This document shows, in pieces, positions 4,804 through 61,168 of a DNA stretch of 64,000 nucleotides (position 1 is its first letter; each line of letters starts with the position of its first letter). Made by a program: the position numbers and the translations under genes. The stretch covers positions 28,413-92,412 of IMG/VR virus record IMGVR_UViG_3300037088_000882; one strand, written 5' to 3'. The notes beneath the pieces are model-generated. The model worked only from the letters and a program-made list of their open reading frames with translations, had not been told where the DNA came from and made no database searches. Source of the DNA: a virus.

Positions 4804-4844
4804 CAAAAAACCCTGCTTGATCTTTAGAACCAAGCAGGGTTTTG
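4804..4844 (-). terminator. Intrinsic terminator / attenuator of tRNA array 1
   Basis: Hairpin AAAACCCUGCUUG / CAAGCAGGGUUUU followed on the minus strand by UUUUUUGUUU. An upstream segment of the leader (plus 4874-4888) can pair at 14 of 15 positions, counting G-U, with the 5' arm and flank (plus 4830-4844), so antiterminator and terminator are mutually exclusive. A second option pairs plus 4865-4872 with 4816-4823. Confidence 0.85.
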
Positions 4845-4867
4845 TTTATTTCTTTTTTAACTTTAGA

Positions 4868-4954
4868 TCAAGACAAAATCCTACCCGGTCCCTTTAGATA
4901 GCTAAGGTAATATGATAGACACAAAGGTAAGGATTGAATAGTCTTATTGCTCAT
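4868..4954 (-). CDS. Leader peptide of tRNA array 1, 28 aa
   Basis: The ATG is only 8 nt past the -10 box, so the mRNA is nearly leaderless and has no Shine-Dalgarno site. The core reads SLPLCLSYYLSYL: six Leu (UUA, UUG, CUA, CUU, CUA, UUG), three Tyr, one Cys and five Ser in 28 residues. The tRNAs downstream are Leu (five anticodons), Tyr, Cys and a permuted Ser. The stop codon lies 3 nt beyond the antiterminator 5' strand, so a ribosome finishing the ORF would mask it and one stalled on Leu/Tyr/Cys codons would not. Inferred to be an attenuation control peptide. Confidence 0.8.
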   Translation of the reverse strand: MSNKTIQSLPLCLSYYLSYLKGPGRILS

Positions 4955-4962
4955 GATAACTA

Positions 4963-4991
4963 AATATAACACAGAAAAAATAAAAAGTCAA
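4963..4991 (-). promoter_or_regulatory. Sigma70 promoter of tRNA array 1
   Basis: TTGACT (4986-4991) and TATATT (4963-4968) are separated by exactly 17 nt on the minus strand, with TG two bases upstream of the -10. It drives the leader ORF and array 1. Confidence 0.9.
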
Positions 4992-4999
4992 TTACTTTT

Positions 5000-7072
5000 T
5001 TAAGGTTCTACTGCTGTAAAGTCATTTTCAGGAACAGTGCTTTTATTTTTAGATCCGTATTTCCCAAGACGTGGCGAAATAAGAGAGTCTTCGGAAATAA
5101 ACCCCATAAGAGCTGAAGTTAAAGCTTGCTCACTAAGATATTCTTTTATTACCTGATCTTTATTCAAAACTTTAAAAAGTTTCATAACATGAGATACTTT
5201 GCATAATGCCACTTGTCGATAGGCACTAAGAACATCTTTTTTGATAGCATTAGAGTACATAACATTATGTTGTTTTTGATGAAATTCTGCAGTTTCTTGT
5301 ATGATTGGGGATTCTTCATTAAAAAATACTGCGGATCCCATATGTCCGTCTTCAAAACGGTGTTCATCTTTATAGAAGCATATATTTACTTCATGTTGCA
5401 TATCATTTTTTCCTACAGGGACAATTATTGGCATATCTTTTTTAATTTTTATTTCTATACTAGGAGTAGAATCTCCTGTGCTTTTTGCCTTTTTAACTCG
5501 AATACGTCGCCAAATTTGTTGAGAACCATCTATTGCTACGCCAGTTTTTTTCTCACCTGTATCGCTACCTTTACCCTCACTACTCCCTTTACTTACGCCA
5601 TTTAAAAAGCTCTCCCCCTCTTGGCTAGAGTCGATGAGACCGGTACTTTTTTGGTTTACAGGAACTTCTTCGTCAGTAGGGTCTTTTTTTATTTTTGATT
5701 TATTGGAATAATCTATGACATGGATACTATCGGCAAACCTATTACCGTATTTATCTAAAATTCTTTTTAGAAGAGCTTCATTGCCAGCAATTAGATCATC
5801 GCTGTCTCTGTCTTTATGTAATTCTTTGATTGTGTTAACTATTTCTTCTGGCATGTTTTTTATAAACAGGAGTCCCCAATATTCCATAGGAAGTTCAATA
5901 CTTTTTTTCCCGTTTCCAGTAAAGAATAAATTTGATCGGCTTTGATCAGGGAAGACGCCCCAATCTGTCTCTTGTGTGTGAATCTGGGGTTCTATAATAA
6001 TAGTTAATCGATTTTGAATTTCTTTGTCAATTATTCCGAAATTTCTAAAATTTGATATATGAGAATTAAAATTATATAGCTCTCCTTTATACATAACAGC
6101 AATGAAACCACTTTCTAGAGCATAGCCGTGACATACAGGACGGGCACCTTCCCAAAGGTACCAGCTAATTTTAAGTTTGCCATCTTCGAGATAGAAGGTA
6201 TCTGCTGTTTTAAGTTTACCTATTTTTGGGGCAATAACTTTAGCTTCTGTTATGTAATACTTAGCTCCATGGCATATCCTGGTATTTCCCCTGGTAGTAT
6301 TATATTTTTGTAATTTTTCATTGAATTCTTTTTCGCATCGCGGCCATTCATCTCGATTAGCTTTTCCATAATTAAATTCTTTAACACTAACTTGAATATT
6401 GTCCAGATTAAAAAAACGTGTATTAATATAACGTGTCAAATTTGAGGTATACCCTTTTTCCGATTGCATGTATGTGTCAGTTTTTGAGTCGTTCCCCATA
6501 AGAATGATGCAGGTTCCATGATCTCTAACCCATTTTGGAGCAACTAAAGACCAATCAATTTCATCCTCTTCCCATTCTACTGACATAGGGTCGATAACGG
6601 TTGCTATCTCATCGTTAAATTCCCAACTGGAAATGCTATAGGCTTTTTCCTCTATGTCATAATACATTCGTATCATTGATCCAATACCGTTTTGGTAAGA
6701 TATGTATACAACACCAGCCCCATTCCATGGCAGAAGAGATATTCTACATCCAATACCAAAATTTGTGTGAATGACTCTATCATTTTCATTCATTTCCTGC
6801 ATGACTGCTTTACCGCTGGATTGTATGTTTGTAAAATATTTTTTAAGTTGTTCTGCGGACATGCCATCCCCATCGTCGCAAATCATATGACGGTAAACAC
6901 CCTCTTTAGTAACCGATTGCCATTCAACTCCAAACTCTACTTTTTTAGCATGGGCTTCAATGGCATTCATTAAGACTTCACGGGCCCATTGATAAGGTTG
7001 GCAAAAACGGTATGTTCTGAGAATAAAATCTGTGGCATTTTCCATGCCAATGGGGAAGCTTTTGGAAGACAT
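5000..7072 (-). CDS. GHKL ATPase (Hsp90/MORC/rIIA-like), 690 aa
   Basis: The N-terminal third has the GHKL (Bergerat) fold motifs: REVLMNAIEAHA (N-box, about 31-42), CDDGDGMS (about 65-72) and NFGIGCRISLLPW (about 104-116). A Ser/Gly-rich linker near residue 490-530 leads to a C-terminal domain of unknown fold. T4 rIIA and many large-phage proteins share this N-terminal ATPase. RBS AAAGGAT is well placed. It could act in lysis inhibition, exclusion or nucleic-acid remodelling. Family confident, role open. Confidence 0.8.
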   Translation of the reverse strand: MSSKSFPIGMENATDFILRTYRFCQPYQWAREVLMNAIEAHAKKVEFGVEWQSVTKEGVYRHMICDDGDGMSAEQLKKYFTNIQSSGKAVMQEMNENDRVIHTNFGIGCRISLLPWNGAGVVYISYQNGIGSMIRMYYDIEEKAYSISSWEFNDEIATVIDPMSVEWEEDEIDWSLVAPKWVRDHGTCIILMGNDSKTDTYMQSEKGYTSNLTRYINTRFFNLDNIQVSVKEFNYGKANRDEWPRCEKEFNEKLQKYNTTRGNTRICHGAKYYITEAKVIAPKIGKLKTADTFYLEDGKLKISWYLWEGARPVCHGYALESGFIAVMYKGELYNFNSHISNFRNFGIIDKEIQNRLTIIIEPQIHTQETDWGVFPDQSRSNLFFTGNGKKSIELPMEYWGLLFIKNMPEEIVNTIKELHKDRDSDDLIAGNEALLKRILDKYGNRFADSIHVIDYSNKSKIKKDPTDEEVPVNQKSTGLIDSSQEGESFLNGVSKGSSEGKGSDTGEKKTGVAIDGSQQIWRRIRVKKAKSTGDSTPSIEIKIKKDMPIIVPVGKNDMQHEVNICFYKDEHRFEDGHMGSAVFFNEESPIIQETAEFHQKQHNVMYSNAIKKDVLSAYRQVALCKVSHVMKLFKVLNKDQVIKEYLSEQALTSALMGFISEDSLISPRLGKYGSKNKSTVPENDFTAVEP

Positions 7073-7176
7073 AAAAATTATCCTTTCACTAGTAGTACTA
7101 GGGATTGGTTAAAGTAAAAAATAAACTAAGATAAAACTTGAGTTTAAAACACAAGGTTTATCCATAACATTAAAAT

Positions 7177-8447: not shown

Positions 8448-8802
8448 GATTTTCCTTTAAATAAGTGGAGCTACGGGGATTTGAACCCCGAACTTTCAGC
8501 TTGCAAAGCTGACACTCTTCCAATTGAGTTATAGCCCCATTATTTTCTATCTGAATTTCAGATTTCCAGTCTTTTTGTTTCTTTTCCTGCATTGTTAAAC
8601 TTCCACCACTTTCCCAGGCAGTACGCCTTGGGTTTCCACACATATCACAGCTACATAGTTTTGTAGTATTTCTAAGTATGTAAGAGAAATACCTCAATGT
8701 TTTTTCTGTAGGCTTTGAAGAACATAACAATCCTTGAGCACGTTTCTTCCCCTTATTGGCCCCAATAAGGAAACGTTCTCTACGATCTTTTGGATGAGAC
8801 AT
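8440..8802 (-). CDS. Conserved phage-type CxCxxCGNPR protein, reading through tRNA-Ala
   Basis: From the ATG at 8802 (RBS AAAAGGG) the protein begins MSHPKDRRERFLIGANKGKK and contains LCSCDMCGNPRR, the signature of a common small phage/bacterial protein. The expected domain ends after about 75 residues. The frame then runs on through the tRNA-Ala gene to a stop at 8440. The tail therefore encodes a tRNA in sense; the natural C-terminus could be shorter in relatives. Function unknown. Confidence 0.6.
   Translation of the reverse strand: MSHPKDRRERFLIGANKGKKRAQGLLCSSKPTEKTLRYFSYILRNTTKLCSCDMCGNPRRTAWESGGSLTMQEKKQKDWKSEIQIENNGAITQLEECQLCKLKVRGSNPRSSTYLKENHE
8466..8538 (-). tRNA. tRNA-Ala(UGC)
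   Basis: Acceptor GGGGCUA/UAGCUCC, anticodon arm UCAGC-UUUGCAA-GCUGA, T-loop UUCAAAU, A73, no encoded CCA. Lacks the G3-U70 of canonical tRNA-Ala in Watson-Crick form: position 3-70 is indeed G-U here. Belongs to operon 2, whose leader has three Ala codons. Confidence 0.9.
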
Positions 8803-8875
8803 AATGTACCCTTTTCTAGCGTCACTCACTGACGCATGATAGTGGATATCATTATGTGCTCCTTTCTTTAAAATA

Positions 8876-8948
8876 AGCCGATGAGAGGGCTCAAACCTCC
8901 AACTTGCTGATTACAAATCAGCTACTCTATCAATTGAGTTACACCGGC
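8876..8948 (-). tRNA. tRNA-Thr(UGU)
   Basis: Acceptor GCCGGUG/CAUCGGC, anticodon arm GCUGA-UUUGUAA-UCAGC, T-arm with UUUGAGC loop, U73, no encoded CCA. Overlaps the last 10 nt of the CCA-adding enzyme gene. Confidence 0.88.
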
Positions 8949-10249
8949 GTATGAACATATACGTTTTTAATATACTCCAAAGCATCTTCTTGATTCAAGA
9001 TCGTCCCCTCGAGTTGTTGGTCCTCGATATCGGTTAAGATAATACCGAACTCTGGGCCTTGTTTAAAGCCCATATTAAGCAAATCCTTACCAGTCACGAT
9101 TCTTGGAGGACGAATTTCTTCTGGCTCATAAGTCTTGAGCTTTTCGATAACGAAATCATAGTTCTCAAGATTCCTATGCGATGATAAACAATCTACCCGA
9201 TGAAGAGCTAAATGATCTTCAATATTAGGTAGAGCCAGAAATCTTTTCAGTCGAGAAACTCTCATTTTCTTCACATGCATAAATTTCATGTGGTTTTCGA
9301 CTAAGTCTGAAATTCGAGTTACGAAATCATTTGAAAATTTCAACCTTTTCAAAATTCCCCAAGCAATATACTTACCCTTGATATCGTGGCCACTAAACCT
9401 TATACGGTCCTCGAAGGTTTGAGTAGGTGGCTTACCCACATCATGCAATAAGGTTGCCATTCTCACCTCAATAGAAGCCTCAGTAGGAAGATTTTCAAGA
9501 GCTTTTATCGTATGCTCGAGAACATCTCCTTCGGGGTGGTATTGAGGTGGTTGCTCACAACCCTTCATGGCCCGGACCTCGGGCAGGATATGATCGATTA
9601 ATCCAGTATCAAAAAGAAGGTTTACTGCCTTCCTGTAATTACCTGCCATAAGAATCTTAGTAAGTTCATCTGCAACTCTCTCGGCCGAGACCTGGGTTAT
9701 TTCAAAGGCATGCCTTTGAACTGCCTCTATGGTGCCTGGATCGATTTTGAAATCAAACCTGGCAGAAAAACGTACAACTCTCATCATACGTAATTTATCC
9801 TCAGCAATACGGTCATCAGGATTACCTATAAGCTTTATGATACCCTTATGAAGATCTTCAATACCTCCAACAGAATCGTAAATCTTATCTTCAATTGGGT
9901 CATAGAACATCCCATTGATGGTAAGGTCCCTACGTTGAGCATCCTCTTCCATGGTGCAAAAAGAAACGCTATCGGGCCGTCGACCATCCGAGTACACTCC
10001 ATCAGTCCTATAAGTAGCTACTTCGACTTCCTGGCCTTCATGGACGACTACAATGACTCCGAAAGCTTTGCCAACTGCAAGAGTCTTATCGAATAATTGC
10101 TCGACCATTTCGGGACGTGCGTTAGTGGCTATGTCGATATCAGTTGAAGTCCTTTGTAAGAGCATGTCTCGGACATAGCCTCCAGCAAAGAGAGCTTCAT
10201 AGCCATGGTCTCGTAATTTTTTAACTACATATAATGCTTGTTGTAACAT
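8939..10249 (-). CDS. cca: CCA tRNA nucleotidyltransferase, 436 aa
   Basis: Class II CCA-adding enzyme: AGGYVRDMLL (22-31), the metal-binding DID (37-39), RRDLTINGMFYD with the D-L-T-I-N motif, nucleotide-binding EDKLRMMRVVRFSARF, and a C-terminal HD hydrolase domain (LLHDVGKP). It adds or repairs the 3' CCA of tRNAs. At least half of the tRNAs here lack an encoded CCA, and both permuted tRNAs need it. Embedded in tRNA operon 2, between tRNA-His and tRNA-Thr. RBS AGGATAAT. Confidence 0.95.
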   Translation of the reverse strand: MLQQALYVVKKLRDHGYEALFAGGYVRDMLLQRTSTDIDIATNARPEMVEQLFDKTLAVGKAFGVIVVVHEGQEVEVATYRTDGVYSDGRRPDSVSFCTMEEDAQRRDLTINGMFYDPIEDKIYDSVGGIEDLHKGIIKLIGNPDDRIAEDKLRMMRVVRFSARFDFKIDPGTIEAVQRHAFEITQVSAERVADELTKILMAGNYRKAVNLLFDTGLIDHILPEVRAMKGCEQPPQYHPEGDVLEHTIKALENLPTEASIEVRMATLLHDVGKPPTQTFEDRIRFSGHDIKGKYIAWGILKRLKFSNDFVTRISDLVENHMKFMHVKKMRVSRLKRFLALPNIEDHLALHRVDCLSSHRNLENYDFVIEKLKTYEPEEIRPPRIVTGKDLLNMGFKQGPEFGIILTDIEDQQLEGTILNQEDALEYIKNVYVHTPV

Positions 10250-10250
10250 A

Positions 10251-10562
10251 TTATCCTATTTTGATATTTTCTTCTTCAATTTTAACCCCTTGTTTTTCAA
10301 GGGATTTGAGATCTCTTTCCAGTTCCTTTATATCTTGTTTTTTATGCTCCAAAACATATATGATAAATCTTTTTATAGCTATGGCATCTTCATCTGAAAC
10401 TTGAACAGTTGAATAGCTTGAAAATTGTATCTCTGATTTTGTTGGATCATCTTTTTTATAGCACAGTATTCGTGTGTTTGCACTACCGCCTGTGAAAGAA
10501 TATTCAATGCCTTCTGAAAAAAAAGATCCAGTACAGACATGCATAATATTAACATTTTTCAT
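10251..10562 (-). CDS. Hypothetical protein, 103 aa
   Basis: The N-terminal half contains SGG-type turns and a beta pattern (TRILCYKKDDPTKSEIQFSSYSTVQVSDEDAIA, given here only as landmarks). The C-terminal 40 residues form a Lys/Glu-rich helix likely to be a coiled coil. RBS TAGGATAAAAT. It abuts cca by 1 nt. Role unknown. Confidence 0.6.
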   Translation of the reverse strand: MKNVNIMHVCTGSFFSEGIEYSFTGGSANTRILCYKKDDPTKSEIQFSSYSTVQVSDEDAIAIKRFIIYVLEHKKQDIKELERDLKSLEKQGVKIEEENIKIG

Positions 10563-10581
10563 ATTTTATCCTATTTAAATT

Positions 10582-10659
10582 TGGGGTGGAAGACGGGGCT
10601 TGAACCCGCAACCACTGGCTTCACAGGCCAGGGCTCTAGCCAATTGAGCTACCTCCACC
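10582..10659 (-). tRNA. tRNA-His(GUG) with encoded G-1 and CCA
   Basis: Acceptor GUGGAGG/CUUCCAC preceded by G-1, which faces C73, the bacterial His identity element. Anticodon arm CUGGC-CUGUGAA-GCCAG. CCA encoded. It lies 6 nt from the Thg1-like gene. The leader peptide of operon 2 has two His codons. Confidence 0.92.
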
Positions 10660-10665
10660 ATAAAA

Positions 10666-11355
10666 TCAGTCTTCTCTTACTTGAACAAATTTTTCGATGT
10701 ATTCTCGATCTTTAGTGAAAATCGGAATGTTTAAATCTACATCCCCATTAACAACACAAAAACCACGTTTCCGCACAACTGGATATTTATCGAAATTTAT
10801 TCCTTTTTTCTGGAATAGTAACTCTTGTATTTCCTTACAAGAGACTTTATTTAATTCCTTGTGTGAAAAGTTTTCTCGCCCTGCCATCTGGATTGAGTTC
10901 CTGGTGGCATCCACTTGTCTCCATATGAAATAGTTTACTACCTCATCCTGAGGAATTGAAAAAACTCTACTATCAAAACAGACGTTGCTTCCATAGAGTC
11001 GAGAAAAGACTGCACTGGCCAAGGAAGCTGATATTGAAATCATTTTTCGTGCATCGTATCCGAACCAGGCATCTGTCGAGATCTTTTTATAATCTGTTAA
11101 AAGAAAGCTTATTTCGTCGGATTGGCAGTAACAAAAACCGCACCCTTGAATGTCAGCTAATACCGTATTAGCAGTTGCGATCATTTGCTCGGTAAACTCC
11201 ATGGACCATCCTTTTCCGAATCTTTTTCTGGTGATGGTGTGGAAGGCCCGGCCATCGATCCTGAGTATTACCGGAATCCGTCTTGGTAAAGTCCAAGCTG
11301 AGACTGATTCATAACGCTTCATGCGATCGCCTAGGTCTAACCTATCACTACTCAT
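10666..11355 (-). CDS. Thg1-like 3'-5' polymerase (tRNA-His guanylyltransferase family), 229 aa
   Basis: Thg1 catalytic motifs are intact: VILRIDGRAFHT with metal ligands near D34, and CQSDEISFLL (77-86) supplying the second acidic pair. Length fits bacterial and phage Thg1-like proteins. Eukaryal Thg1 adds G-1 to tRNA-His. Bacterial/archaeal TLPs instead repair 5'-truncated tRNAs by templated 3'-5' addition. Since the neighbouring tRNA-His encodes G-1, repair or editing is the likelier role. Located directly upstream of tRNA-His in operon 2. Confidence 0.9.
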   Translation of the reverse strand: MSSDRLDLGDRMKRYESVSAWTLPRRIPVILRIDGRAFHTITRKRFGKGWSMEFTEQMIATANTVLADIQGCGFCYCQSDEISFLLTDYKKISTDAWFGYDARKMISISASLASAVFSRLYGSNVCFDSRVFSIPQDEVVNYFIWRQVDATRNSIQMAGRENFSHKELNKVSCKEIQELLFQKKGINFDKYPVVRKRGFCVVNGDVDLNIPIFTKDREYIEKFVQVRED

Positions 11356-11602
11356 TTTTATTCCGATCTGTTATATAAGATTTAAGTCTTTTAATTATCC
11401 CATTTCCTGTTTCTATACCGTAGAAATCATTCACACAGTTATGGATTCTTTCTACGATTCGATCTGATTTTGATCCTTGTTTTACTGCGTTTTCGTAATA
11501 ATCAATCCAGTCTACAAGCATGTTGTTTTTTTGCAGTACTTCTAACACAAATTCAAGAGGTAGCCCTATAGATGATACTACAAAATGGATTCCTCTAACC
11601 AC
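11348..11602 (-). CDS. Hypothetical protein, 84 aa
   Basis: A helical protein with FVLEVLQKNNMLVDWIDYYENAV and a basic C-terminus. It overlaps the Thg1-like start by 8 nt, suggesting translational coupling. The LVDWIDYYENAVKQG pattern recalls small phage proteins linked to tRNA or ligase modules, but no family is assigned. Confidence 0.6.
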   Translation of the reverse strand: MVRGIHFVVSSIGLPLEFVLEVLQKNNMLVDWIDYYENAVKQGSKSDRIVERIHNCVNDFYGIETGNGIIKRLKSYITDRNKNE

Positions 11603-11684
11603 TATTTTTTTATCGGTCGAGTATCCTGAGAACTGTGATACGTTGCGTTTAGCATGAAGCTATTACCCTTCTATTATACATAAA

Positions 11685-11770
11685 TGGCGGAGGCGAGACG
11701 AGTCGAACGTCCAAGGCCTTTCGGCCGGCGGTTTTCAAGACCGCTGAATTACCAGTTATCCTACGCCTCC
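11685..11770 (-). tRNA. tRNA-Ser(UGA)
   Basis: Normal-order class II tRNA: acceptor GGAGGCG/CGCCUCC, anticodon arm GCGGU-CUUGAAA-ACCGC, variable arm GGCCGAAAGGCC, T-loop UUCGACU, G73 and encoded CCA. Same anticodon as the permuted U1. Confidence 0.92.
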
Positions 11771-11780
11771 ATATATCTCA

Positions 11781-11853
11781 AGCCCACATCCTGGATCGAA
11801 CAGGAGACCTCATCCTTACCAAGGATGTGCTCTACCAACTGAGCTATGTGGGC
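11781..11853 (-). tRNA. tRNA-Thr(GGU)
   Basis: Acceptor GCCCACA/UGUGGGC, anticodon arm CAUCC-UUGGUAA-GGAUG, T-loop UUCGAUC, U73, no encoded CCA. Part of operon 2. Confidence 0.92.
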
Positions 11854-11856
11854 ATA

Positions 11857-12297
11857 TTACCTTAACCCGTAAAGGTACAGCAATCCTGCCCATCCACTTG
11901 GAAGGCATTCTGGTGCTGTTTCTAATTTCTTTCCGTATTTCACAGCCATTTCTAAAAAATACTTAGCATGAAAGAATGCCTCTAACATTGGCCGAGTGTG
12001 TTTGAGCCATTCCTTATTATGTTTTGAATCAAATACTTTACCAGTTCCTTCCTGGTATATTTGATCGAAGTCATCATTAAACATAACTCCTACAGGAGCT
12101 AAACTTTTTAAAGTTTCTATTATCTTTTGAGTGCTTCCCTGTATGCCGTATACTTTAAAAGAGGAATGGTAGAAACGGTAAACGTAATCCTCATAACACC
12201 AATGGTCATTAATATCTTCCAGGAGCTTTTCAAGCTCGGGGAGTCTTGCCTTGATATTTACCAAGAGGTCTTTACTAAGATCTTGTCTCTCACTCAT
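11857..12297 (-). CDS. Hypothetical protein, 146 aa
   Basis: I start it at the ATG of MSERQDLSKD (RBS AAAAAGGGAG). Upstream codons in the same frame run through the tRNA-Trp and attenuator and are not credible coding. The protein has an N-terminal helix (ARLPELEKLLEDINDHW), then HxFK and YFLEMAVKYGKKLETAPECLPSGWAGLLYLYG. This resembles a conserved phage/bacterial family of unknown function. Sits between tRNA-Trp and tRNA-Thr. Confidence 0.65.
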   Translation of the reverse strand: MSERQDLSKDLLVNIKARLPELEKLLEDINDHWCYEDYVYRFYHSSFKVYGIQGSTQKIIETLKSLAPVGVMFNDDFDQIYQEGTGKVFDSKHNKEWLKHTRPMLEAFFHAKYFLEMAVKYGKKLETAPECLPSGWAGLLYLYGLR

Positions 12298-12317
12298 AAG
12301 AACTCCCTTTTTAAAGA

Positions 12318-12379
12318 TGGCAGGAGTGGATCGAACCCCCATCGTCGGTTTTGGAGACCGGGTGCTTAGCGACACTCCT
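12318..12379 (-). tRNA. Truncated 62-nt tRNA-Trp(CCA)
   Basis: Acceptor AGGAGUG/CACUCCU, G73, encoded CCA and an anticodon arm CGGU-CUCCAAA-ACCG with anticodon CCA are typical of tRNA-Trp. The D-arm is reduced to GC-UAA-GC and the T-arm to a 3-bp stem with UUCGAU, so about 14 nt are missing against a normal tRNA. A minimal functional tRNA or a decaying copy. First tRNA after the operon 2 attenuator. Confidence 0.7.
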
Positions 12380-12382: not shown

Positions 12383-12422
12383 AAACAAAAAACCCCGCCG
12401 AATCTTTCGATCGAGCAGGGTT
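12383..12422 (-). terminator. Intrinsic terminator / attenuator of tRNA operon 2
   Basis: Minus-strand hairpin AACCCUGC...GCGGGGUU followed by UUUUUUGUUUU. A competing antiterminator pairs leader bases 12449-12462, which contain the leader stop codon, with the terminator 5' arm at 12409-12422 (13 of 14 positions including one G-U). Confidence 0.85.
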
Positions 12423-12452
12423 TGATTTGAAACACTTTATTTTTACTTAACC

Positions 12453-12551
12453 TTACTCGATCTCCAATATAGTATGCCAATGTGCCCATGATGTCGATGT
12501 GGTGGCCATTGCATTATTAGAGGATGATGTAGTAAGATTAATTGTTTTCAT
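12453..12551 (-). CDS. Leader peptide of tRNA operon 2, 32 aa
   Basis: The ATG is 7 nt past the -10 box, so the transcript is essentially leaderless. The peptide contains LTTSSSNNAMATTSTSWAHW followed by HT: seven Thr, five Ser (all UCN), three Ala, two Trp and two His among 32 residues. The operon encodes tRNA-Trp, Thr(GGU), Ser(UGA), His, Thr(UGU) and Ala, exactly those isotypes. The stop codon lies within the antiterminator 5' strand. Inferred to be a stall-sensing attenuation peptide. Confidence 0.82.
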   Translation of the reverse strand: MKTINLTTSSSNNAMATTSTSWAHWHTILEIE

Positions 12552-12558: not shown

Positions 12559-12587
12559 ATTATACTATATATTTCGGTTCGTGTCAA
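12559..12587 (-). promoter_or_regulatory. Consensus sigma70 promoter of tRNA operon 2
   Basis: Perfect TTGACA (12582-12587) and TATAAT (12559-12564) with a 17-nt spacer on the minus strand. The strongest-looking promoter in the window. Confidence 0.95.
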
Positions 12588-42331: not shown

Positions 42332-45300
42332 AGCAGCTACAGTTAGTTCAGGGGACCTTTTTGAAGAGGATAAGATTCAGACCCTTACGGGCGAGAAGCC
42401 TTGGATGAAGGATAGAGTTTTTAAGTGTGCTGAAACAATTGAAGACGTAAGGAAGTTTGTAGATAATGCTATCGATCCTGCCATTAATCCTTCGAGAAGA
42501 TGTGTCCTGGATCTTGAAACTACAGGATTAAACAGCCGAACTAAAAAACAAGTTGGTCCTGATGGTAAAATTCGTCAGGTCCCTATAACTCCTATTGTAG
42601 GTTTTTGTGTTTCCTACGACTCAAAATTTGGTTTTTATATTCCCATTAAACATTGGGATGATCCTAATAATCCAGAAGGCTATAATTTACCTGAAAAGGA
42701 AGTTTTCGAGGAAATCCGTAGGTTATGTGCGTTTTGTGTGACTATCTACCATAATGCTAAATTCGATCTACAGTTTCTGAAAAATTACGGCATTATTGTA
42801 TCTGATTTCAGAAAGTTTGAAGATACTCTCCTAAAAGCACATCTCTTTGATCCAGCCCAAAAAGATAATAAGCTTAAGCATCTATCAGAACGCCTGCTTA
42901 ATCAACCCATGATAGAATTCAGTGATATAACAGGTAAGGAAAAACGTTTTGATCTTCTTGATCCCAGGAAGATTGGTTACGTCTATGGGTCTTCGGATGG
43001 AGTCTGCACCTTTGATCTTAATAATTATTTTGATGCTCAAGAAATTGTTACAAGCCAGAAATCCATATACGACCTTGAGAGAAGAATAACCCTGGTTGTT
43101 ATGGAAATGGAATCAAACCTTGTTAAGTTGAATATCCCGTATTTAAAAGATTTACAGCATCGAACTCAAACTCGAATAGATGAAATTGAAAAGCAGATCC
43201 ATGCATTTGCTGGCCGTGATATAAATATTGCAAGTCCTCAACAATTAGGTAAGTTTCTTTTTGATGAAAAGCAATATACTTACCCTGAGAAGTCCAAGAC
43301 CGCGTCCGGGCAATATAGCACTGCAGATGCTACTCTTGAAAAGATAGCTGAGTTATACCCCATCGTTAAAAGGATTATGGAGTATCGGGGATTAGAAAAA
43401 ATAAATGGGACCTATATAACTAAACTGCTGAATAATTATGATGAGGATGAGTGTGTAAAACTTTGTTTTAATCAGTCTGGAACGGATACTGGCCGATTCT
43501 CGTCTCCTGGAGGCCAGGGCATTGATGAGGATGGTTATTCAGGGACTAACGTTCAAAGTATTCCAAAAAAGCCTGATGAGGATAATCCATGGATGGATAT
43601 GCGTAAGGCTTTTGTCCCTCGACCTGGCTTTACAATGATTGCGGCAGATTATGAAAACGAAGAGATGCGTATTGCTACGAATTACTCATTAGAGACTAAG
43701 TGGATTGATGCTGTAAAAAATGATATTGACTTTCATACGGCAACAGGAGCTATTATTGCTGGTGGTAAGGAAGCTAGCCAGGTTACTTCAAGTGAAAGAA
43801 AATTGGGTAAATGTGTTGCAAAGGGAACATTAATAGCTTCAGACCGAGGATGGCTTCCTATCGAGAAATTAAAAAAAGGGGATAAAGTAGTTACTCATAC
43901 TGGAGAGCTTAAAAGAATTACCAAGATATGGGATATGGGTGTAAAACCGGGAATGGTACTTCACACTAAAGGGAAGCATAAAATAACTTGTGGGTTAAAT
44001 CATAAGTTTCTTACAGAGAATAATGAATGGGTAAGAGCGGAAGAATTAAAAATAGGCTGTATAATAAAAACAATGGCTGTTTCTATCAAACCTTTTTTAA
44101 GTTTAGATAAAGATTGGAAATCAGGTTCGACTGAGATAAGTAAAATTAAATTTATAAATCAGGTAGATTTAATGGATCTTACAATTGAAGGGGATCATAC
44201 TTATATAGCTCAGGGTTTAGTGACTCATAATACAACTAATTTTCTGGCTCTTTATCTCGGAGGACCCAAAACATTAGCAGCAAAAGCAAAAATATCGATG
44301 ATGGAGGCCAAAAAGGTCCTGTATACTTTCTGGGAAGGTGTTCCCAAATTAAAGAAGTGGAAGGATACTGAGATTCTTAAAGCTCGAAAATTAAGGATGG
44401 TTAAAACTGCTTTCGGTCGGGTACGTTCTCTGACTAAGTATTATGAAAGTGGTGATCCTATTATCGAGTCTCATGGGGACCGTTGTGCTATAAACACGCA
44501 GATCCAGGGTTCGGCTGCAGACATGATGAAGATTGTTATGTCTAGGGTATACTTATGGATACATGAGAATAATCTTCAGGATGAGGTAAGGCTTCTTATT
44601 ACCATGCATGATGAGCTTGTTTTTGAGATAAAGACTGAGAAGCTTGAAGAGTATGTTCCATATATTGCTCGGATCATGATGTTACCCGAGATTGTAACTG
44701 ACATGCTTCATTGGCCGGTGCCTTTAACTGTAGACATCAAATATGGGGATTCCTGGAGAGCTAAGAAAACTTTCTTTAAGGATTTTCCAAATGCGAAGGA
44801 AAAACTTAATGATCTCCTAAAGTCTAAAGTTATTGAGATGCCTAAGAATCGTTATGAGATTCTTAAACAGCAAATTCCTGATCCTGTTTCTCAACAACAA
44901 GAAGTTGTTAAAGATTCAACCCCAATTAAAGAGGAGCCCATTGTTGTTGAAAAGAAAGAAGAGCCTGCTCCTGTTGTAGTAGATGTTACTCCCCAGACTG
45001 AGGCCATCTTAAAAGATCCTGTAGATTCCTTGATAACTGATGTGAGTATCCAGGAAACTGTACCGGAGGAAAAAAAAGAACCTGAAGTTGACAAGGTACA
45101 AATCGAAGATAAGATATTAGTGTTTACATTAAGGGATCGTCGGGATGTCACATTACGGCATATGAACGATATAATACGGTTTTTTATTCGAGAGATTAAA
45201 AGAGGGAGGAAATACAAGAGTCCTATGAAAACATTAAGGGTTAGGGATTCTATAGGTAATAGTCTCATGGTATCAGAGACTGAAGTACCAGAAGAGCCTT

Positions 45301-45332
45301 TTTTGACATTAGCAAGATTTTATGAAGTATAA
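42318..45332 (+). CDS. polA: Pol I-family DNA polymerase containing a mini-intein, 1004 aa
   Basis: The 3'-5' exonuclease motifs are present: CVLDLETTGLN (Exo I), IYHNAKFDLQFLKNYG (Exo II), and DLLDPR..YVYGSSDGV (Exo III region). Polymerase motif A is AADYENEEMRIA, motif B is the O helix GK-TTNFLALYLGG, split by the intein, and motif C is TMHDELVFE. The last 150 residues are an acidic Pro/Glu linker plus a small basic domain (VFTLRDRRDVTLRHMND). Intein at residues 499-638. It overlaps the CHC2 gene by 14 nt. Confidence 0.95.
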   Translation: MSRYKAATVSSGDLFEEDKIQTLTGEKPWMKDRVFKCAETIEDVRKFVDNAIDPAINPSRRCVLDLETTGLNSRTKKQVGPDGKIRQVPITPIVGFCVSYDSKFGFYIPIKHWDDPNNPEGYNLPEKEVFEEIRRLCAFCVTIYHNAKFDLQFLKNYGIIVSDFRKFEDTLLKAHLFDPAQKDNKLKHLSERLLNQPMIEFSDITGKEKRFDLLDPRKIGYVYGSSDGVCTFDLNNYFDAQEIVTSQKSIYDLERRITLVVMEMESNLVKLNIPYLKDLQHRTQTRIDEIEKQIHAFAGRDINIASPQQLGKFLFDEKQYTYPEKSKTASGQYSTADATLEKIAELYPIVKRIMEYRGLEKINGTYITKLLNNYDEDECVKLCFNQSGTDTGRFSSPGGQGIDEDGYSGTNVQSIPKKPDEDNPWMDMRKAFVPRPGFTMIAADYENEEMRIATNYSLETKWIDAVKNDIDFHTATGAIIAGGKEASQVTSSERKLGKCVAKGTLIASDRGWLPIEKLKKGDKVVTHTGELKRITKIWDMGVKPGMVLHTKGKHKITCGLNHKFLTENNEWVRAEELKIGCIIKTMAVSIKPFLSLDKDWKSGSTEISKIKFINQVDLMDLTIEGDHTYIAQGLVTHNTTNFLALYLGGPKTLAAKAKISMMEAKKVLYTFWEGVPKLKKWKDTEILKARKLRMVKTAFGRVRSLTKYYESGDPIIESHGDRCAINTQIQGSAADMMKIVMSRVYLWIHENNLQDEVRLLITMHDELVFEIKTEKLEEYVPYIARIMMLPEIVTDMLHWPVPLTVDIKYGDSWRAKKTFFKDFPNAKEKLNDLLKSKVIEMPKNRYEILKQQIPDPVSQQQEVVKDSTPIKEEPIVVEKKEEPAPVVVDVTPQTEAILKDPVDSLITDVSIQETVPEEKKEPEVDKVQIEDKILVFTLRDRRDVTLRHMNDIIRFFIREIKRGRKYKSPMKTLRVRDSIGNSLMVSETEVPEEPFLTLARFYEV
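43812..44231 (+). mobile_element. Mini-intein in DNA polymerase, 140 aa, no endonuclease
   Basis: Starts at Cys499 (CVAKGTLIASDRGWLP), contains block B-like GLNHKFLTENNEW, and ends VTHN before Thr. Splicing joins GK to TTNFLALYLGG, restoring the O helix of motif B, the nucleotide-binding helix. Only about 140 residues, so the homing endonuclease is absent. Loss or failure of splicing would inactivate the polymerase. Confidence 0.92.
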
Positions 45333-50913: not shown

Positions 50914-51070
50914 GGTCCTCTTTATCTTTCTTTATACGTATTGGTTTTCTACAACAAGAGCATCTGTGAATCATTTCACCTTTAGGTCCATACTCACCCC
51001 ATCGAATATTACCTATATGCCCAAAAACCCAACAAAGAAATGATCCCCATAAATTACGTTTAGTCGGCAT
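50900..51070 (-). CDS. Small Cys-rich protein, 56 aa
   Basis: Begins MPTKRNLWGSFLCWVFGHIG; ends with HRCSCCRKPIRIKKDK, a likely metal site. Overlaps HU by 14 nt and the methyltransferase stop by 11 nt. Weak RBS. Confidence 0.5.
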   Translation of the reverse strand: MPTKRNLWGSFLCWVFGHIGNIRWGEYGPKGEMIHRCSCCRKPIRIKKDKEDHASK

Positions 51071-53000
51071 CATCGAGAAATAGACTCTTTTCAGTAATTA
51101 TGTGTTTCAATCTCTTATTGGTATAATCAACATATTTTTCTGAGATATCAAATCCTATGTAATTTCGTCCAAGTTTCTTGCACTCTTCAGCAGTTGTACC
51201 ACTTCCAATAAATGGATCGAACACTGTAGACCCTATCCAGCTAAGCATTTTAATAAGGCGCCTGGGTAATTCTGGAGGAAATGGGGCAGGATGAATTGAA
51301 TTATTTATCAATCGTGAAGATTCTTTATAAGCAGCTCGAGCAAATTCCCAGGGAGTTAAAGACCATTCTACAAACTCATCTTTAGTAAGATCGGTTTCAC
51401 CTTTGTCCTGTAGCTCGTAAGTATCCTTACAAAAAATAAGGATGTATTCCATAGCTGTTGGAAAAGAAGGATTATTTGGGCTCTTAAACGATCCCCAAGC
51501 ACAATTATGGTATAATACTTTACCTAAGTAACTATTATCTTCTTCTACTTCCATATTATAAACTTCAATATTTTCAACATTTTCAGTAATAATTTCTTTT
51601 ACCCTATAGAAAGCGTGGTAGCTCCCAATTTTAACTTTGTTGTAGAGATATTTTCTATTATCCATGTCAAAAGGAGCATCACATATATCATGTAGCTTTT
51701 TTCCGTATTTACCACAAAGTCTTATTTCATAGCATTCGTGTTTACCTTGAATGGTTCTTCCGTCTTTTAATATGCTTGAGGATAATTTTTTTCTTTTGTG
51801 TATAGATGGTGGCAATTTTAGGCGTATAAGAATATCACGTAATTGATAAACTAAATATTCAGATACTGTGACAAGAGAGCTTTGATGGGAATTAAAATGA
51901 CCGTCAGCGTGAAAAACACCTTTAATTAACTCTTTTTGAAGATCATAAGGAACTTGAAATAAAAAGGGGTGCATTTTTTTTTGATGCGCATATTCCCCAC
52001 ATAAAATTTTAAGCATCTTTGGTAGAATTTTATTTGAACTGATAATTATTCTTTTTAAATTATCTCGGTATTCTTTATGTGTTGTAAATCCTAATTTTAG
52101 GGCTATAGAAACTATATCATCAGTTAAGTAATCTTCATTTGGCCCAAAATCTAAACGAATTTCATTTTTATGTATACTACCATCTCCTAAATAATAACCT
52201 ATAAGTCTGAATAATTCTTTTGAGTTGTAATTAAAAAGAATTCCAGTTATTTTTTCTAACCTTTTATTGAAATTATTTACTCCTGCATGATGTTGCGTTG
52301 TATATCGAGGGACCATTAAGTAATACTCATAAGGCTCTAATTCTATAGGAATTTTCCACAAGGGAGTAAGCGGGACTCTTTTTCTTGGACAGCCCTTAGG
52401 GCAAAATTTACTAATCAGGCTTTTACGGTGCAATACTGGTGATACATATAAAGGATGCTCACCATAAACCGTAATCGGCTGTCCCCCTATTGTATGTATT
52501 GTATATTTATTTCCTGTAAAAACGGATTTATGTAAATCTAAAACTTTTCTAAAGCGTCGTTTATGTGTTAAAACCATATCGCCTATTTTTACATCTTTTA
52601 TATGTTTATAGCCATCTAAAGTATTGATTAATTCTTCTGGTGGTAAACATCTATTACTGGTATTGTTTTTATTCCAAGCAATTGTTGTGTATTGGAGATA
52701 GTGCAAAGAATGGGTCATGAATTGAATAATATCGGAGTGGGTAGGTATCTTTCCATTTTCTCCGTCTCCAATATTAATAACGACTCTACCTCCCTTTTTT
52801 AATTTAGGGTAGAGGGCTTTAAATATTTCTCGTAACCATTTTATATAATTTTTGTGGCCCATTTTATCGTTGAATGAATCATAACCTTCAAGACCTACAT
52901 TATATGGAGGACTTGTGATTACAAGATCGATACTTTTATCCGTGAGTTTGGGTATTAATTCTAAACAATCCCCTTGGACTATTTCATTTAAAAATTGCAT
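51060..53000 (-). CDS. DNA methyltransferase (N4/N6 type) interrupted by an intein, 646 aa
   Basis: Extein about 264 residues. Catalytic TSPPYNVGLEGYDSF (29-43) and AdoMet motif FDPFIGSGTTAEECKKLGRNYIGFDI show a beta-class N4-cytosine or N6-adenine enzyme. Intein at residues 118-499 between TSNR and CAWGS. With Dam at 7177 the phage has two orphan methylases, a likely anti-restriction pair. Confidence 0.93.
   Translation of the reverse strand: MQFLNEIVQGDCLELIPKLTDKSIDLVITSPPYNVGLEGYDSFNDKMGHKNYIKWLREIFKALYPKLKKGGRVVINIGDGENGKIPTHSDIIQFMTHSLHYLQYTTIAWNKNNTSNRCLPPEELINTLDGYKHIKDVKIGDMVLTHKRRFRKVLDLHKSVFTGNKYTIHTIGGQPITVYGEHPLYVSPVLHRKSLISKFCPKGCPRKRVPLTPLWKIPIELEPYEYYLMVPRYTTQHHAGVNNFNKRLEKITGILFNYNSKELFRLIGYYLGDGSIHKNEIRLDFGPNEDYLTDDIVSIALKLGFTTHKEYRDNLKRIIISSNKILPKMLKILCGEYAHQKKMHPFLFQVPYDLQKELIKGVFHADGHFNSHQSSLVTVSEYLVYQLRDILIRLKLPPSIHKRKKLSSSILKDGRTIQGKHECYEIRLCGKYGKKLHDICDAPFDMDNRKYLYNKVKIGSYHAFYRVKEIITENVENIEVYNMEVEEDNSYLGKVLYHNCAWGSFKSPNNPSFPTAMEYILIFCKDTYELQDKGETDLTKDEFVEWSLTPWEFARAAYKESSRLINNSIHPAPFPPELPRRLIKMLSWIGSTVFDPFIGSGTTAEECKKLGRNYIGFDISEKYVDYTNKRLKHIITEKSLFLDDAD
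51504..52649 (-). mobile_element. Full intein with LAGLIDADG endonuclease in the methyltransferase, 382 aa
   Basis: Cys118 start (CLPPEELINTLDGYKHI), block B GEHPLYVSP, endonuclease motifs LIGYYLGDGSIH and LIKGVFHADGHF, and C-terminal VLYHN before Cys. Complete intein and homing endonuclease, so mobile in principle. The insertion lies just before the CAWGS conserved motif. Confidence 0.93.
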
Positions 53001-58976: not shown

Positions 58977-59062
58977 TGGCGGAGAGCCGGCGATTTGAAC
59001 GCCGAAGCCCTTTCGGGCGCTGGTTTAGCAAACCAGGGTCATACCATTAGACATAGCTCTCC
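58977..59062 (-). tRNA. tRNA-Ser(GCU)
   Basis: Class II tRNA: acceptor GGAGAGC/GCUCUCC, anticodon arm CUGGU-UUGCUAA-ACCAG, long variable arm GCCCGAAAGGGC, G73, encoded CCA. Reads AGU/AGC, the four Ser(AGY) codons of the array 3 leader. Confidence 0.92.
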
Positions 59063-59310
59063 ATAATTTGTTTGATAAGGTTTTGTTCTATAAATCTTTT
59101 TACATCAGCAGGATAGATAGTGTAAGCAATATTATCAATCTCATAATCTGGGTCGTCGCCTAAAAATTCAATAAATCTTTCTAAAGGTATTTCTTCTCGT
59201 TTTCTGTTTGGGGTAAATATTATAAGGTTCCCTCGTTGTCCTCGGAGATACCATTTCCATGTATCAGCCCCGATGTGAATTTTTCTTAGAGCTTTCATTT
59301 TACGAGACAT
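59047..59310 (-). CDS. Hypothetical protein, 87 aa
   Basis: Basic protein starting MSRKMKALRKIHIGADTWKW; DDPDYEIDNIAYTIYPADVK toward the C-terminus. It overlaps tRNA-Ser by 16 nt. Between tRNAs of array 3. Unknown. Confidence 0.55.
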   Translation of the reverse strand: MSRKMKALRKIHIGADTWKWYLRGQRGNLIIFTPNRKREEIPLERFIEFLGDDPDYEIDNIAYTIYPADVKRFIEQNLIKQIMESYV

Positions 59311-59328
59311 GCGTTTTCCTTAAAATAG

Positions 59329-59404
59329 TGGTGGGTGTTTCCAGACTCGAACTGGAATAACAGGATTTTCAGTCCCGCACCTTGACCCCGTTGGTAAAAC
59401 ACCC
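59329..59404 (-). tRNA. tRNA-Phe(GAA)
   Basis: Acceptor GGGUGUU/AACACCC, anticodon arm CGGGA-CUGAAAA-UCCUG (one G-U), T-loop UUCGAGU, A73 and encoded CCA. Three Phe codons in the leader. Confidence 0.9.
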
Positions 59405-59458
59405 ATTATAAAGACACTAAAGCCATCGTTGTCCATTGGGTGTTTCCTTTCTTGTTAA

Positions 59459-59535
59459 TGGTAGGCCCGGACCGAGTTGAACGGTCGACCCCTACCTTAT
59501 CAGGGTAATGCTCTAACCATCTGAGCTACGGGCCT
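59459..59535 (-). tRNA. tRNA-Ile(GAU)
   Basis: Acceptor AGGCCCG/CGGGCCU, anticodon arm UUACC-CUGAUAA-GGUAG, T-loop UUCAACU, A73 and encoded CCA. Three Ile AUY codons in the leader. Confidence 0.92.
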
Positions 59536-59542
59536 GTAAATC

Positions 59543-59629
59543 TAGCGGGAGCAGGATTCGAACCTGCGTCCTCTGTTAAGAGGTGAGGCTTATGAGACCC
59601 CCGAGTTAGACCAACTACTCTATCCCGCG
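59543..59629 (-). tRNA. Initiator-like tRNA-Met(CAU) with long variable arm
   Basis: Begins CGCGGGA and ends UCCCGC-U-A: C1-U72 are unpaired, like the C1-A72 of initiator tRNA. The anticodon loop is CUCAUAA with a GGGGU/GCCUC stem. The variable region ACCUCUUAACAGAGGAC forms a 5-bp hairpin, unknown in normal tRNA-fMet. No encoded CCA. Could be an initiator-like decoy or a specialised start tRNA. Confidence 0.75.
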
Positions 59630-59637
59630 ATAATTTA

Positions 59638-59715
59638 TGGTGGTGGTAGCTGGATTTAAACCAGCGAATCTCTGGATTATGATTCCAGGGCATTAATCAG
59701 CTATGCTATACCACC
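59638..59715 (-). tRNA. tRNA with CAU anticodon (Met or Ile2)
   Basis: Acceptor GGUGGUA/UACCACC, anticodon arm CUGGA-AUCAUAA-UCCAG, T-loop UUUAAAU, A73 and encoded CCA. Cannot be told whether C34 becomes lysidine (Ile AUA) or is elongator Met; the leader has three internal Met codons. Confidence 0.88.
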
Positions 59716-59769
59716 ATATTAGCTCCTCCAATTTTTTGTGCTTTTAGTGTGTACATCTAAACTCCATAA

Positions 59770-59846
59770 TGGCGGGCCCGACGTGGATCGAACACGCGAC
59801 CTCCGCAGTGACAGTGCGGCGTTCTAGCCAATTGAACTACGAGCCC
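59770..59846 (-). tRNA. tRNA-Asp(GUC)
   Basis: Acceptor GGGCUCG/CGGGCCC, anticodon arm CCGCA-CUGUCAC-UGCGG, T-loop UUCGAUC, G73 and encoded CCA. First tRNA of array 3. Two Asp codons in the leader. Confidence 0.92.
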
Positions 59847-59854: not shown

Positions 59855-59884
59855 AAAAACCTCGTTGGTTTCCCAGCGAGGTTT
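59855..59884 (-). terminator. Intrinsic terminator / attenuator of tRNA array 3
   Basis: CCUCGCUGG-GAAA-CCAACGAGG (one C-A) then UUUUUUGUUUUUUG on the minus strand. Antiterminator: leader 59911-59926 (includes the stop codon) pairs with 59875-59890 at 15 of 16 positions including G-U, disrupting the terminator 5' arm. Also CAAGACC upstream can pair with GGUCUUG. Confidence 0.88.
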
Positions 59885-59913
59885 TGATTTAATCTATTTT
59901 GTTACTTGTTAAA

Positions 59914-60003
59914 TCAAGACCCCGCCTTAGGCATAGTATCAAACATGCTATCACTAATGATAAACATAAAGCTGATACTGACGGTCTTGGTTGAAAGTAA
60001 CAT
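59914..60003 (-). CDS. Leader peptide of tRNA array 3, 29 aa
   Basis: The peptide contains SISFMFIISDSMFDTM: Ser AGY x4, Ile AUY x3, Phe x3, internal Met x3, Asp x2. The array encodes tRNA-Ser(GCU), Ile(GAU), Phe, two CAU tRNAs and Asp. This leader has a 5' UTR with AAGGA 11 nt upstream. The stop codon is inside the antiterminator strand. Inferred to be an attenuation peptide. Confidence 0.85.
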   Translation of the reverse strand: MLLSTKTVSISFMFIISDSMFDTMPKAGS

Positions 60004-60046: not shown

Positions 60047-60075
60047 AAGATAACACATAAAAAAGTTTTTGTCAA
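60047..60075 (-). promoter_or_regulatory. Sigma70 promoter of tRNA array 3
   Basis: TTGACA (60070-60075), 17 nt, TATCTT (60047-60052) on the minus strand, with TGTG just before the -10. Confidence 0.88.
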
Positions 60076-60186: not shown

Positions 60187-60233
60187 AAGGTCTAATAGTT
60201 TATCTCTATAGGTTTTTTACTTATTTGTTTTTC

Positions 60234-60252
60234 AAAGGAGTTTTATATGTAA
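60234..60252 (+). promoter_or_regulatory. Shine-Dalgarno with start-stop codon pair
   Basis: AAAGGAG, 6 nt, then ATG immediately followed by TAA. A perfect ribosome site that encodes only Met. It may act as a ribosome parking or reinitiation site. No longer peptide opens here. Confidence 0.5.
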
Positions 60253-60259
60253 TCGCAAA

Positions 60260-60334
60260 ATGTTTACTCGCTTCATTTGTGTAATAGCCAGTTGGGTCGG
60301 GCCATTAAGTGTCCCATTAATACTGACAGGCTAA
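60260..60334 (+). CDS. Possible hydrophobic micropeptide, 24 aa
   Basis: MFTRFICVIASWVGPLSVPL then LILTG: a hydrophobic, single-helix peptide 8 nt after the start-stop pair, without its own RBS. It could be translated by reinitiation. Low confidence. Confidence 0.3.
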   Translation: MFTRFICVIASWVGPLSVPLILTG

Positions 60335-60379
60335 CGTTTTAAGATCACTAAACGCAAAACAACTAACAAGGAGTCTATC

Positions 60380-60985
60380 ATGGTTTCTCTATCCGCCCTC
60401 ATTGACTTACACGCCTCTTTTGACACTCAGTACGGAATCGGTAACAATCTCATTCATTATCTTGCTCAACTTCGAACTACTCAGAATTTTGATTTTGAAG
60501 GTATAAAACAGCTCTTTATTACCCGTCAAAGCCCACAAAGATTTGATGAGTTTAATTTAAAAGTAGCTCCTATGGATATATCTCTTTTAAAAAAGAGACT
60601 TGTACTTCCTGCAAGTGATAATGAAATTTACCGAATTGTTATGTCAGAGGATCCGACAATCCCAGAATTGGAACTCTTTTCTTTTAAATGCCCTGGCTGG
60701 TCGAATTTATTTGCCCTGAAATGGTATTTGGTGCATCACATGGATAAGGCTAAGGCCTTTACTGGGTTTCTTCCCTATGGCTCTCCTGTAGTAGCCTTTG
60801 TAAATTCTTTGAGATCTAAACCTCGAAACATCCCGATGAACCCAGATTATGCAGATCATGTGTACTTGCAGACAATTAGTAATCAGGAGGCCTTGACTTT
60901 TAATATGCCTTCAATCGAAATAAATAATATTATGTATCTTAAAGGATTGAAGTATACAAAGGCTGAAAAAGAAATATCTGAATAA
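60380..60985 (+). CDS. Hypothetical protein, 201 aa
   Basis: Soluble mixed alpha/beta protein; has LLKKRLVLPASDNEIYRIV and HMDKAKAFTGFLPYGSPVVA. RBS AAGGAG 8 nt upstream. Own promoter and structured leader. Function unknown; possibly an early protein. Confidence 0.6.
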   Translation: MVSLSALIDLHASFDTQYGIGNNLIHYLAQLRTTQNFDFEGIKQLFITRQSPQRFDEFNLKVAPMDISLLKKRLVLPASDNEIYRIVMSEDPTIPELELFSFKCPGWSNLFALKWYLVHHMDKAKAFTGFLPYGSPVVAFVNSLRSKPRNIPMNPDYADHVYLQTISNQEALTFNMPSIEINNIMYLKGLKYTKAEKEISE

Positions 60986-60991
60986 TTTTTC

Positions 60992-61020
60992 TTGACTTTA
61001 CTTTTTAAAACAGTTATAAT
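60992..61020 (+). promoter_or_regulatory. Consensus sigma70 promoter of tRNA array 4
   Basis: TTGACT (60992-60997), 17 nt, TATAAT (61015-61020), on the plus strand. Confidence 0.92.
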
Positions 61021-61026
61021 TATACC

Positions 61027-61104
61027 ATGTTAAAAAATACGTTAAACACAATTATAGGTACGGTCGGGATAAGTGAACGTAAGGTAGGAGGATTTCTAAC
61101 CTGA
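61027..61104 (+). CDS. Leader peptide of tRNA array 4, 25 aa
   Basis: ATG 6 nt past TATAAT, so leaderless. The peptide has two AUA Ile codons and one GAA Glu near GISE; the array encodes two tRNA-Glu(UUC) and a tRNA-like RNA with UAU anticodon loop. Its TGA lies in the antiterminator strand. The codon match is weaker than for the other three leaders. Confidence 0.65.
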   Translation: MLKNTLNTIIGTVGISERKVGGFLT

Positions 61105-61136
61105 CAGGGCCTGTATTGTATAAAAAGTAAGTTCAA

Positions 61137-61168
61137 GGCCCCGTCAGGAAACCGACGGGGCCTTTTTT
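61137..61168 (+). terminator. Intrinsic terminator / attenuator of tRNA array 4
   Basis: GGCCCCGUC-AGGAAACC-GACGGGGCC followed by UUUUUU. Antiterminator: 61100-61111 (contains the leader stop codon) pairs with 61137-61148 at 11 of 12 positions, taking over the terminator 5' arm. Confidence 0.92.

Follow-up and report, generated by a model that had tools for sequence, protein, structure and literature searches.

tRNA operons of the window and their leaders

The window analysed here, a stretch of 64,000 nucleotides (nt) covering positions 28413-92412 of a 92.4-kb viral contig, carries four tRNA-bearing transcription units, each headed by a candidate transcription attenuator; on the contig outside the window, ARAGORN found no tRNA genes. 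All four units open with a sigma-70 promoter (17-nt spacer); an open reading frame (ORF) of 25-32 codons comes next, then a strong intrinsic terminator and finally the tRNA genes. This is the order of parts in an attenuator (promoter, short leader ORF, intrinsic terminator, regulated genes), and it confirms the sequence-only reading of the window, which had placed these parts ahead of all four operons. Leaders 1-4 have 28, 32, 29 and 25 codons, each ORF ends in a stop codon, and terminators of 11-16 pairs lie immediately 3' of them.

Units 1-3 are on the minus strand. Promoter 1 (4963-4991, TTGACT-17-TATATT) stands 8 nt upstream of the ATG of leader ORF 1 (4868-4954, MSNKTIQSLPLCLSYYLSYLKGPGRILS), which is followed by terminator 1 (4807-4843, 16 pairs) and by operon 1 (3553-4634), with Cys(GCA), Leu(UAG), a permuted tRNA gene, Leu(GAG), a permuted Ser(UGA), Leu(CAG), Tyr(GUA), Leu(UAA) and Leu(CAA). 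Promoter 2 (12559-12587), with TTGACA-17-TATAAT, matches the consensus at 12/12 positions and stands 7 nt upstream of the ATG of leader ORF 2 (12453-12551, MKTINLTTSSSNNAMATTSTSWAHWHTILEIE); terminator 2 (12390-12423) then precedes operon 2 (8465-12378), with a degenerate tRNA-Trp(CCA), Thr(GGU), Ser(UGA), a Thg1-like protein, His(GUG), a CCA-adding enzyme, Thr(UGU) and Ala(UGC). In unit 3, promoter 3 (60047-60075, TTGACA-17-TATCTT), leader ORF 3 (59914-60003, MLLSTKTVSISFMFIISDSMFDTMPKAGS) with AAGGA upstream of it, and terminator 3 (59856-59885) lead to operon 3 (58977-59846), with Asp(GUC), two Met(CAU), Ile(GAU), Phe(GAA) and Ser(GCU). Unit 4, on the plus strand, has promoter 4 (60992-61020, TTGACT-17-TATAAT) 6 nt upstream of the ATG of leader ORF 4 (61027-61104, MLKNTLNTIIGTVGISERKVGGFLT), terminator 4 (61135-61164) and operon 4 (61215-61538), with two Glu(UUC) and an atypical tRNA read as Ile(UAU). 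In ten leaders (1, 2 and 4 of the window and L092, L102, L143, L145, L147, L148 and L149 elsewhere), the ATG follows the -10 box by 6-8 nt, and this short distance suggests leaderless initiation, with the mRNA starting at or beside the ATG.

In each unit, the end of the leader can pair with the 5' arm of the terminator. This antiterminator is denoted 2:3, region 3 being the terminator 5' arm, and the terminator itself 3:4. Region 2, its 5' strand, occupies 4872-4893 (-), 12448-12463 (-), 59912-59932 (-) and 61100-61113 (+) in attenuators 1-4, that is, -25 to -4, -10 to +5, -18 to +2 and -4 to +9 from the last base of the stop codon. The stop codon is thus spanned in attenuators 2-4 and nearly reached in attenuator 1, as had been claimed from the letters. 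The 2:3 pairings have free energies of -25.0, -19.3, -20.0 and -20.5 kcal/mol (p = 0.002, 0.007, 0.002 and 0.007 against dinucleotide-preserving shuffles), and the terminator hairpins -22.4, -18.7, -15.7 and -22.6 kcal/mol.

The codons of the leaders correspond to the tRNAs that follow. When codons readable by the tRNAs of the leader's own operon were counted and compared with random windows from the phage's own ORFs, leader 1 had 10 of 27 (p = 8.5e-4), leader 2 had 16 of 31 (p = 5e-5) and leader 3 had 15 of 28 (p = 5.5e-4), the last including four AGY codons, which fit Ser(GCU). The real pairing of leaders and operons also scored highest of all 24 possible assignments of leaders to operons in the window. 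The match to downstream isotypes proposed for three of the four leaders therefore stood up to controls for leaders 1-3, and, as described below, permutations across families upheld it as well.

Leaders in other phages

Relatives in metagenomes were reached through searches with Thg1 and a DnaB-like helicase, and their tRNA regions were then scanned; a Megablast search of the window's first 20 kb against phage records gave no match, and searches with P0008 and DNA polymerase gave no relatives. At the equivalent position, other metagenome phages carry unrelated leader sequences that suit their own operons. For example, the leader of G001 (MRITTNNTFSNSNCTCNFCFSNSRNELVEFA) precedes Phe, Ser(GCU), Cys and Thr(CGU), and that of its relative G002 (MRITTSTFNNNTYSCCFNSNSKLVEFV) precedes Phe, Asn, Ser(GCU), Cys and Thr(CGU). 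The leaders of G004 (MKLTIRQPQPQPGYNTRGTCV) and G006 (MNTRRNPQPQPGVI) stand upstream of Pro, Pro, Gln, Gln and of Pro, Pro, Gln, Pro, respectively, and a leader core RQPQPQP precedes tRNA-Pro/Gln. The three leaders of G008 contain SSSRSSR ahead of Arg and four Ser tRNAs, LLSISIILLL ahead of Leu(UAA) and Ile, and INQQWQPQP ahead of Gln, Pro and Trp. The leader of G015 (MMKSFKNSRCFASSTFKSTSCKLFWLFEKGIQ) lies upstream of Trp, Lys, Cys, Ser(GCU) and Leu, and a related one in G014 upstream of Trp, Val, Cys and Leu. Among the cultured isolates examined, two had clear leaders: Bacillus phage G (KCSWFEFDTDFTDVFYCEYTFYSLYTFLD, upstream of Cys, Asp, Phe, Tyr, Glu, Thr and Ser) and Caulobacter phage CcrColossus (TYRNNVRQIRVRQFN, upstream of Val, Ile, Val, Gln, Asn and Arg). 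The order of promoter, short ORF, terminator and tRNA genes that the sequence-only reading suggested looking for thus recurs in unrelated phages, both metagenomic and cultured.

Leaders of this kind are not universal among tRNA-bearing phages. The scan detected no leaders in G003, G009, G010, G011, G012, G013, XacN1, FADO, Stenotrophomonas CM1, Fnu1, Weasels2, GAP32, T4, T5, phiL47, SBSphiJ and Mildred21. A candidate leader and terminator in Vibrio phage KVP40 was not counted; its antiterminator did not outperform shuffles (p = 0.31), and the operon covers almost every amino acid.

When the leaders and operons of 15 independent families were compared, the leader's own operon ranked first in 13 and second in two, and the observed sum of 55.5 was reached by none of 200,000 permutations (best 31.4). 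Because the leader ORFs had first been picked by eye, a selection-blind scan was also run, in which every ATG ORF near every terminator within 350 nt upstream of a tRNA was scored and the best ORF was kept, in data and permutations alike. Fourteen of 28 sites matched, against a permuted mean of 1.2 (maximum 7 in 20,000), the sites being partly from related phages and so not fully independent. With the frames shifted by one or two, 0 and 1 sites matched. Over the 15 families, 2:3 pairing exceeded shuffles (Fisher p = 1e-16), and its stability usually equalled that of the terminator.

The CcrColossus element is kept in nine giant phages of Caulobacter and Brevundimonas (CcrColossus and eight others), hereafter the Caulobacter family. 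The sequence of the leader cores drifts there, and Arg, Gln, Val, Ile and Asn are retained. In Brevundimonas phage Kikimora, which carries an additional tRNA-Tyr, the core has a Tyr codon where CcrColossus, CcrPW and Papperlapapp have Asn; in contrast, a Phe codon occurs in all these leaders, with or without a tRNA-Phe gene. In this family and in phage G, region 2 is located upstream of the stop codon, in the Caulobacter family at 28-47 nt ahead of it, and the final control codons of the Caulobacter family (GTC CGG) form region 1, which pairs with region 2 as a protector hairpin (1:2). In 1:2 and 3:4, compensatory changes affect five pairs across the nine isolates, a count that 0-1 of 500 shuffles equalled; none of 500 shuffles reached their covariation score, and sliding the register abolished both pairings. 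The 2:3 pairing is 96.8% paired with two compensatory pairs, and in CcrSC regions 2, 3 and 4 are altered in step.

Proposed switch and alternative explanations

The codon match against controls, the recurrence in unrelated phages and the conserved and covarying alternative helices support the attenuation logic first put forward for the window, and we consider it highly probable that these elements act as ribosome-mediated transcription attenuators of the trp/his type, each controlling a phage tRNA operon. In the proposed circuit, transcription would start at or slightly 5' of the short leader ORF, whose middle is rich in codons for the downstream tRNAs. When charged tRNAs are sufficient, the ribosome would reach the leader stop and cover or pass region 2, the 3:4 terminator would form and the operon would be off. 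When one of the sampled tRNA species is short, the ribosome would stall at its codon, region 2 would pair with the terminator 5' arm, and the 2:3 pairing would let RNA polymerase read through and the missing tRNAs be made; in operon 2, read-through would also yield the CCA-adding enzyme and Thg1. The circuit would thus supply tRNA as the need arises, such as when those of the host are depleted or cut by defence nucleases. We infer leader translation, the direction of the response (read-through on tRNA shortage) and the physiological trigger from the layout of the elements. Depletion of host tRNAs by defence nucleases would be an attractive trigger, because phage tRNAs are known to counter it, substituting for host tRNAs that anticodon nucleases or retron effectors have depleted (PMC10264068 and PMC11555353).

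The switch was modelled with the partition function of the nascent RNA. With a stalled ribosome, the terminator 5' arm was mostly bound by upstream RNA (mean 0.57-1.0), whereas with the ribosome at the stop the upstream-bound fraction was 0.05-0.51 in 14 leaders (window, G001, G002, G004, G006 and G008), so that in these leaders region 2 would be masked once the ribosome has reached the stop.

Several results weigh against the attenuator model. Leader 4 shows no codon match (3 of 24 codons, two AUA and one GAA; p = 0.52), and the match is marginal (p = 0.06-0.13) for the operon B leaders of G001 and G002, which precede large mixed operons, and for operon C, which is weak. For phage G and the three G008 leaders, each taken singly, the 2:3 pairing falls short of significance (p = 0.05-0.09). 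Covariation, which the sequence-only reading had hoped to find in the antiterminators of relatives, is clear in the Caulobacter family for 1:2 and 3:4, but for 2:3 the pairing is conserved and its covariation modest (49-67 of 500 shuffles). When the simple model is applied to the leaders of phage G, G014, G015 and the Caulobacter family, placing the ribosome at the stop leaves the 5' arm unfreed, and therefore a 1:2 hairpin or a further step is needed; for the Caulobacter family, the folding model led us to reject a ribosome parked at the stop as the full mechanism. Under equilibrium folding, the terminator is frequently the favoured structure even when the ribosome is stalled, and the switch must therefore be kinetic. 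Finally, the evidence is entirely computational.

The same architecture would be expected if the leaders were general attenuators of amino-acid starvation and the tRNA operons merely what the phage has put under their control, and charged tRNA would be short under either reading. What separates the two is the choice among isoacceptors. For amino acids only partly covered by an operon, 79 of 102 leader codons are decodable, against 45.2 expected from codon usage (z = 7.2): where Ser(GCU) is the only Ser tRNA, 18 of 20 leader Ser codons are AGY, in operon 2, with Ser(UGA) alone, all five are UCN, ACG codons go with Thr(CGU), and TTA occurs only with Leu(UAA). Because the leader codons discriminate isoacceptors and not just amino acids, the sensed signal looks like the supply of particular tRNA species rather than of an amino acid; moreover, a tRNA product cannot relieve an amino-acid shortage. 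We therefore regard starvation attenuators as unlikely. A general sensor of translation failure, in which the leader reports the slowing or arrest of host translation in infection and times tRNA expression while the codons only tune it, is also improbable, by a shade more. Most leaders, when free of ribosomes, do hold region 3 in upstream RNA, and lost translation could thus give read-through, but the codon match is far too specific for such a sensor, and in G2A, G8a, G8c and the Caulobacter family the 1:2 hairpin shuts the switch without a ribosome.

Intergenic terminators are common in phages, and a terminator belonging to the upstream gene, with a chance ORF or an unrelated small gene beside it, would suit leader 4 taken alone. 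As a general explanation it is contradicted by the permutation and frame-shift controls, by 2:3 pairing above shuffles, by promoters sitting immediately upstream of the leader ORFs (window phage, G004, G006 and Caulobacter family), and by conservation of the element in nine phages, and we give it almost no credence. Hardly any weight falls either on a T-box-like element, in which uncharged tRNA would contact the leader RNA directly; it would likewise link tRNA charging to antitermination, but the signal is confined to one ORF reading frame, which direct RNA-tRNA contact would not need. A T-box riboswitch proper was rejected, since Rfam scans gave no T-box match and no family but tRNA was above threshold in the window. 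The known leader-peptide families of Rfam (His_leader, Phe_leader and others) were likewise below threshold in the window, and attenuator 4 scored at best 18-19 bits against their cut-offs of 49-55.

Returning to tRNA-sensing attenuators, the balance tilts slightly toward a widespread phage regulatory class, in which tRNA operons would sense the loss of the particular tRNA species they encode and replace them when needed; such operons would be an inducible defence against host tRNA nucleases or against exhaustion at particular codons.

Operon gene content and comparison with known systems

Operon 2 begins with a degenerate tRNA-Trp(CCA) at 12378-12318 (-), of about 60 nt with little or no D arm, which ARAGORN missed; leader 2 has two Trp codons. 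The Thg1-like gene (10666-11355, -) adjoins tRNA-His, and the CCA-adding enzyme is encoded at 8939-10249 (-); the encoded CCA is missing from several phage tRNA genes. As tRNA-maturation enzymes, both fit a tRNA-shortage regulon. Operon 1 has two circularly permuted tRNA genes, at 4466-4300 (-) and 4212-4045 (-); the second reads as Ser(UGA) and partly accounts for the Ser codons of leader 1. Their layout is T arm and 3' acceptor strand, a 4-6-nt linker, 5' acceptor strand, D arm and anticodon arm, with a long helix enclosing all. A simple scan for this layout gave no signals in 20 shuffles of the window, and no paper on such genes in phages emerged from our literature search. Further candidates without an ARAGORN call occur in L139 (5169, Cronobacter phage GAP32), L135 (6755, Fusobacterium phage Fnu1) and L027 (728 and 932), although junctions of tandem copies can mimic the signal; one in L102 was rejected as such a junction.

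Other features were also seen. L005 (about 1213-1526) and L006 (about 1408-1706) have a tRNA-like gene, probably Leu, split by about 230 nt resembling a group I intron, and L088, L089 and L100 carry CUA-anticodon tRNAs (amber suppressor-like; called Pyl by ARAGORN) within or after attenuated operons. In the window, a DNA polymerase I with intein (Hint) domains lies at 42318-45332 (+), and the DNA methylase at 51060-53000 (-) carries a LAGLIDADG (homing-endonuclease-like) domain as an insertion.

Why phages carry tRNAs is an old question, and the papers checked treat tRNA content and defence evasion, not regulation. A phage tRNA-Tyr is described as expressed from a strong promoter (PMC11555353), and keyword searches of this paper and PMC10264068 gave no mention of an attenuator. 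The genome description of CcrColossus, Karma, Magneto and Swift gives tRNA genes and predicted rho-independent terminators (PMC3556154), with no mention of leader peptides or attenuation in a keyword search. Full-text searches, in which subscription journals were thinly covered, found no earlier report of leader-peptide attenuation of tRNA genes. If our proposal is true, these tRNA genes are under closed-loop control through their own shortage, and the leader sequence reveals which tRNAs a phage expects to run out. Direct testing is possible, as the element occurs in the culturable phages CcrColossus, Karma and BL57 (Caulobacter) and phage G (Bacillus megaterium), and the leaders are a ready natural collection of multi-codon sensors of tRNA shortage.

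The attenuators of amino-acid operons (trp, his, leu, thr, ilv, pheA) are ribosome-mediated. Like the phage elements, they combine a leader peptide with control codons, alternative 1:2, 2:3 and 3:4 helices and a terminator with a U-run, and stalling leads to read-through. The phage elements differ from them in being phage-borne, in targeting tRNA genes instead of biosynthesis enzymes, in sampling up to eight tRNA species per leader with isoacceptor-matched codons, and in an ATG that is often 6-8 nt from the -10 box (leaderless type). T-box riboswitches share antitermination upon a lack of charged tRNA, but they use translation-free, direct RNA-tRNA contact and control synthetase and biosynthesis genes. 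What appears to be new here is the use of a known trp/his-type mechanism with phage tRNA operons as its target and tRNA supply as its signal.

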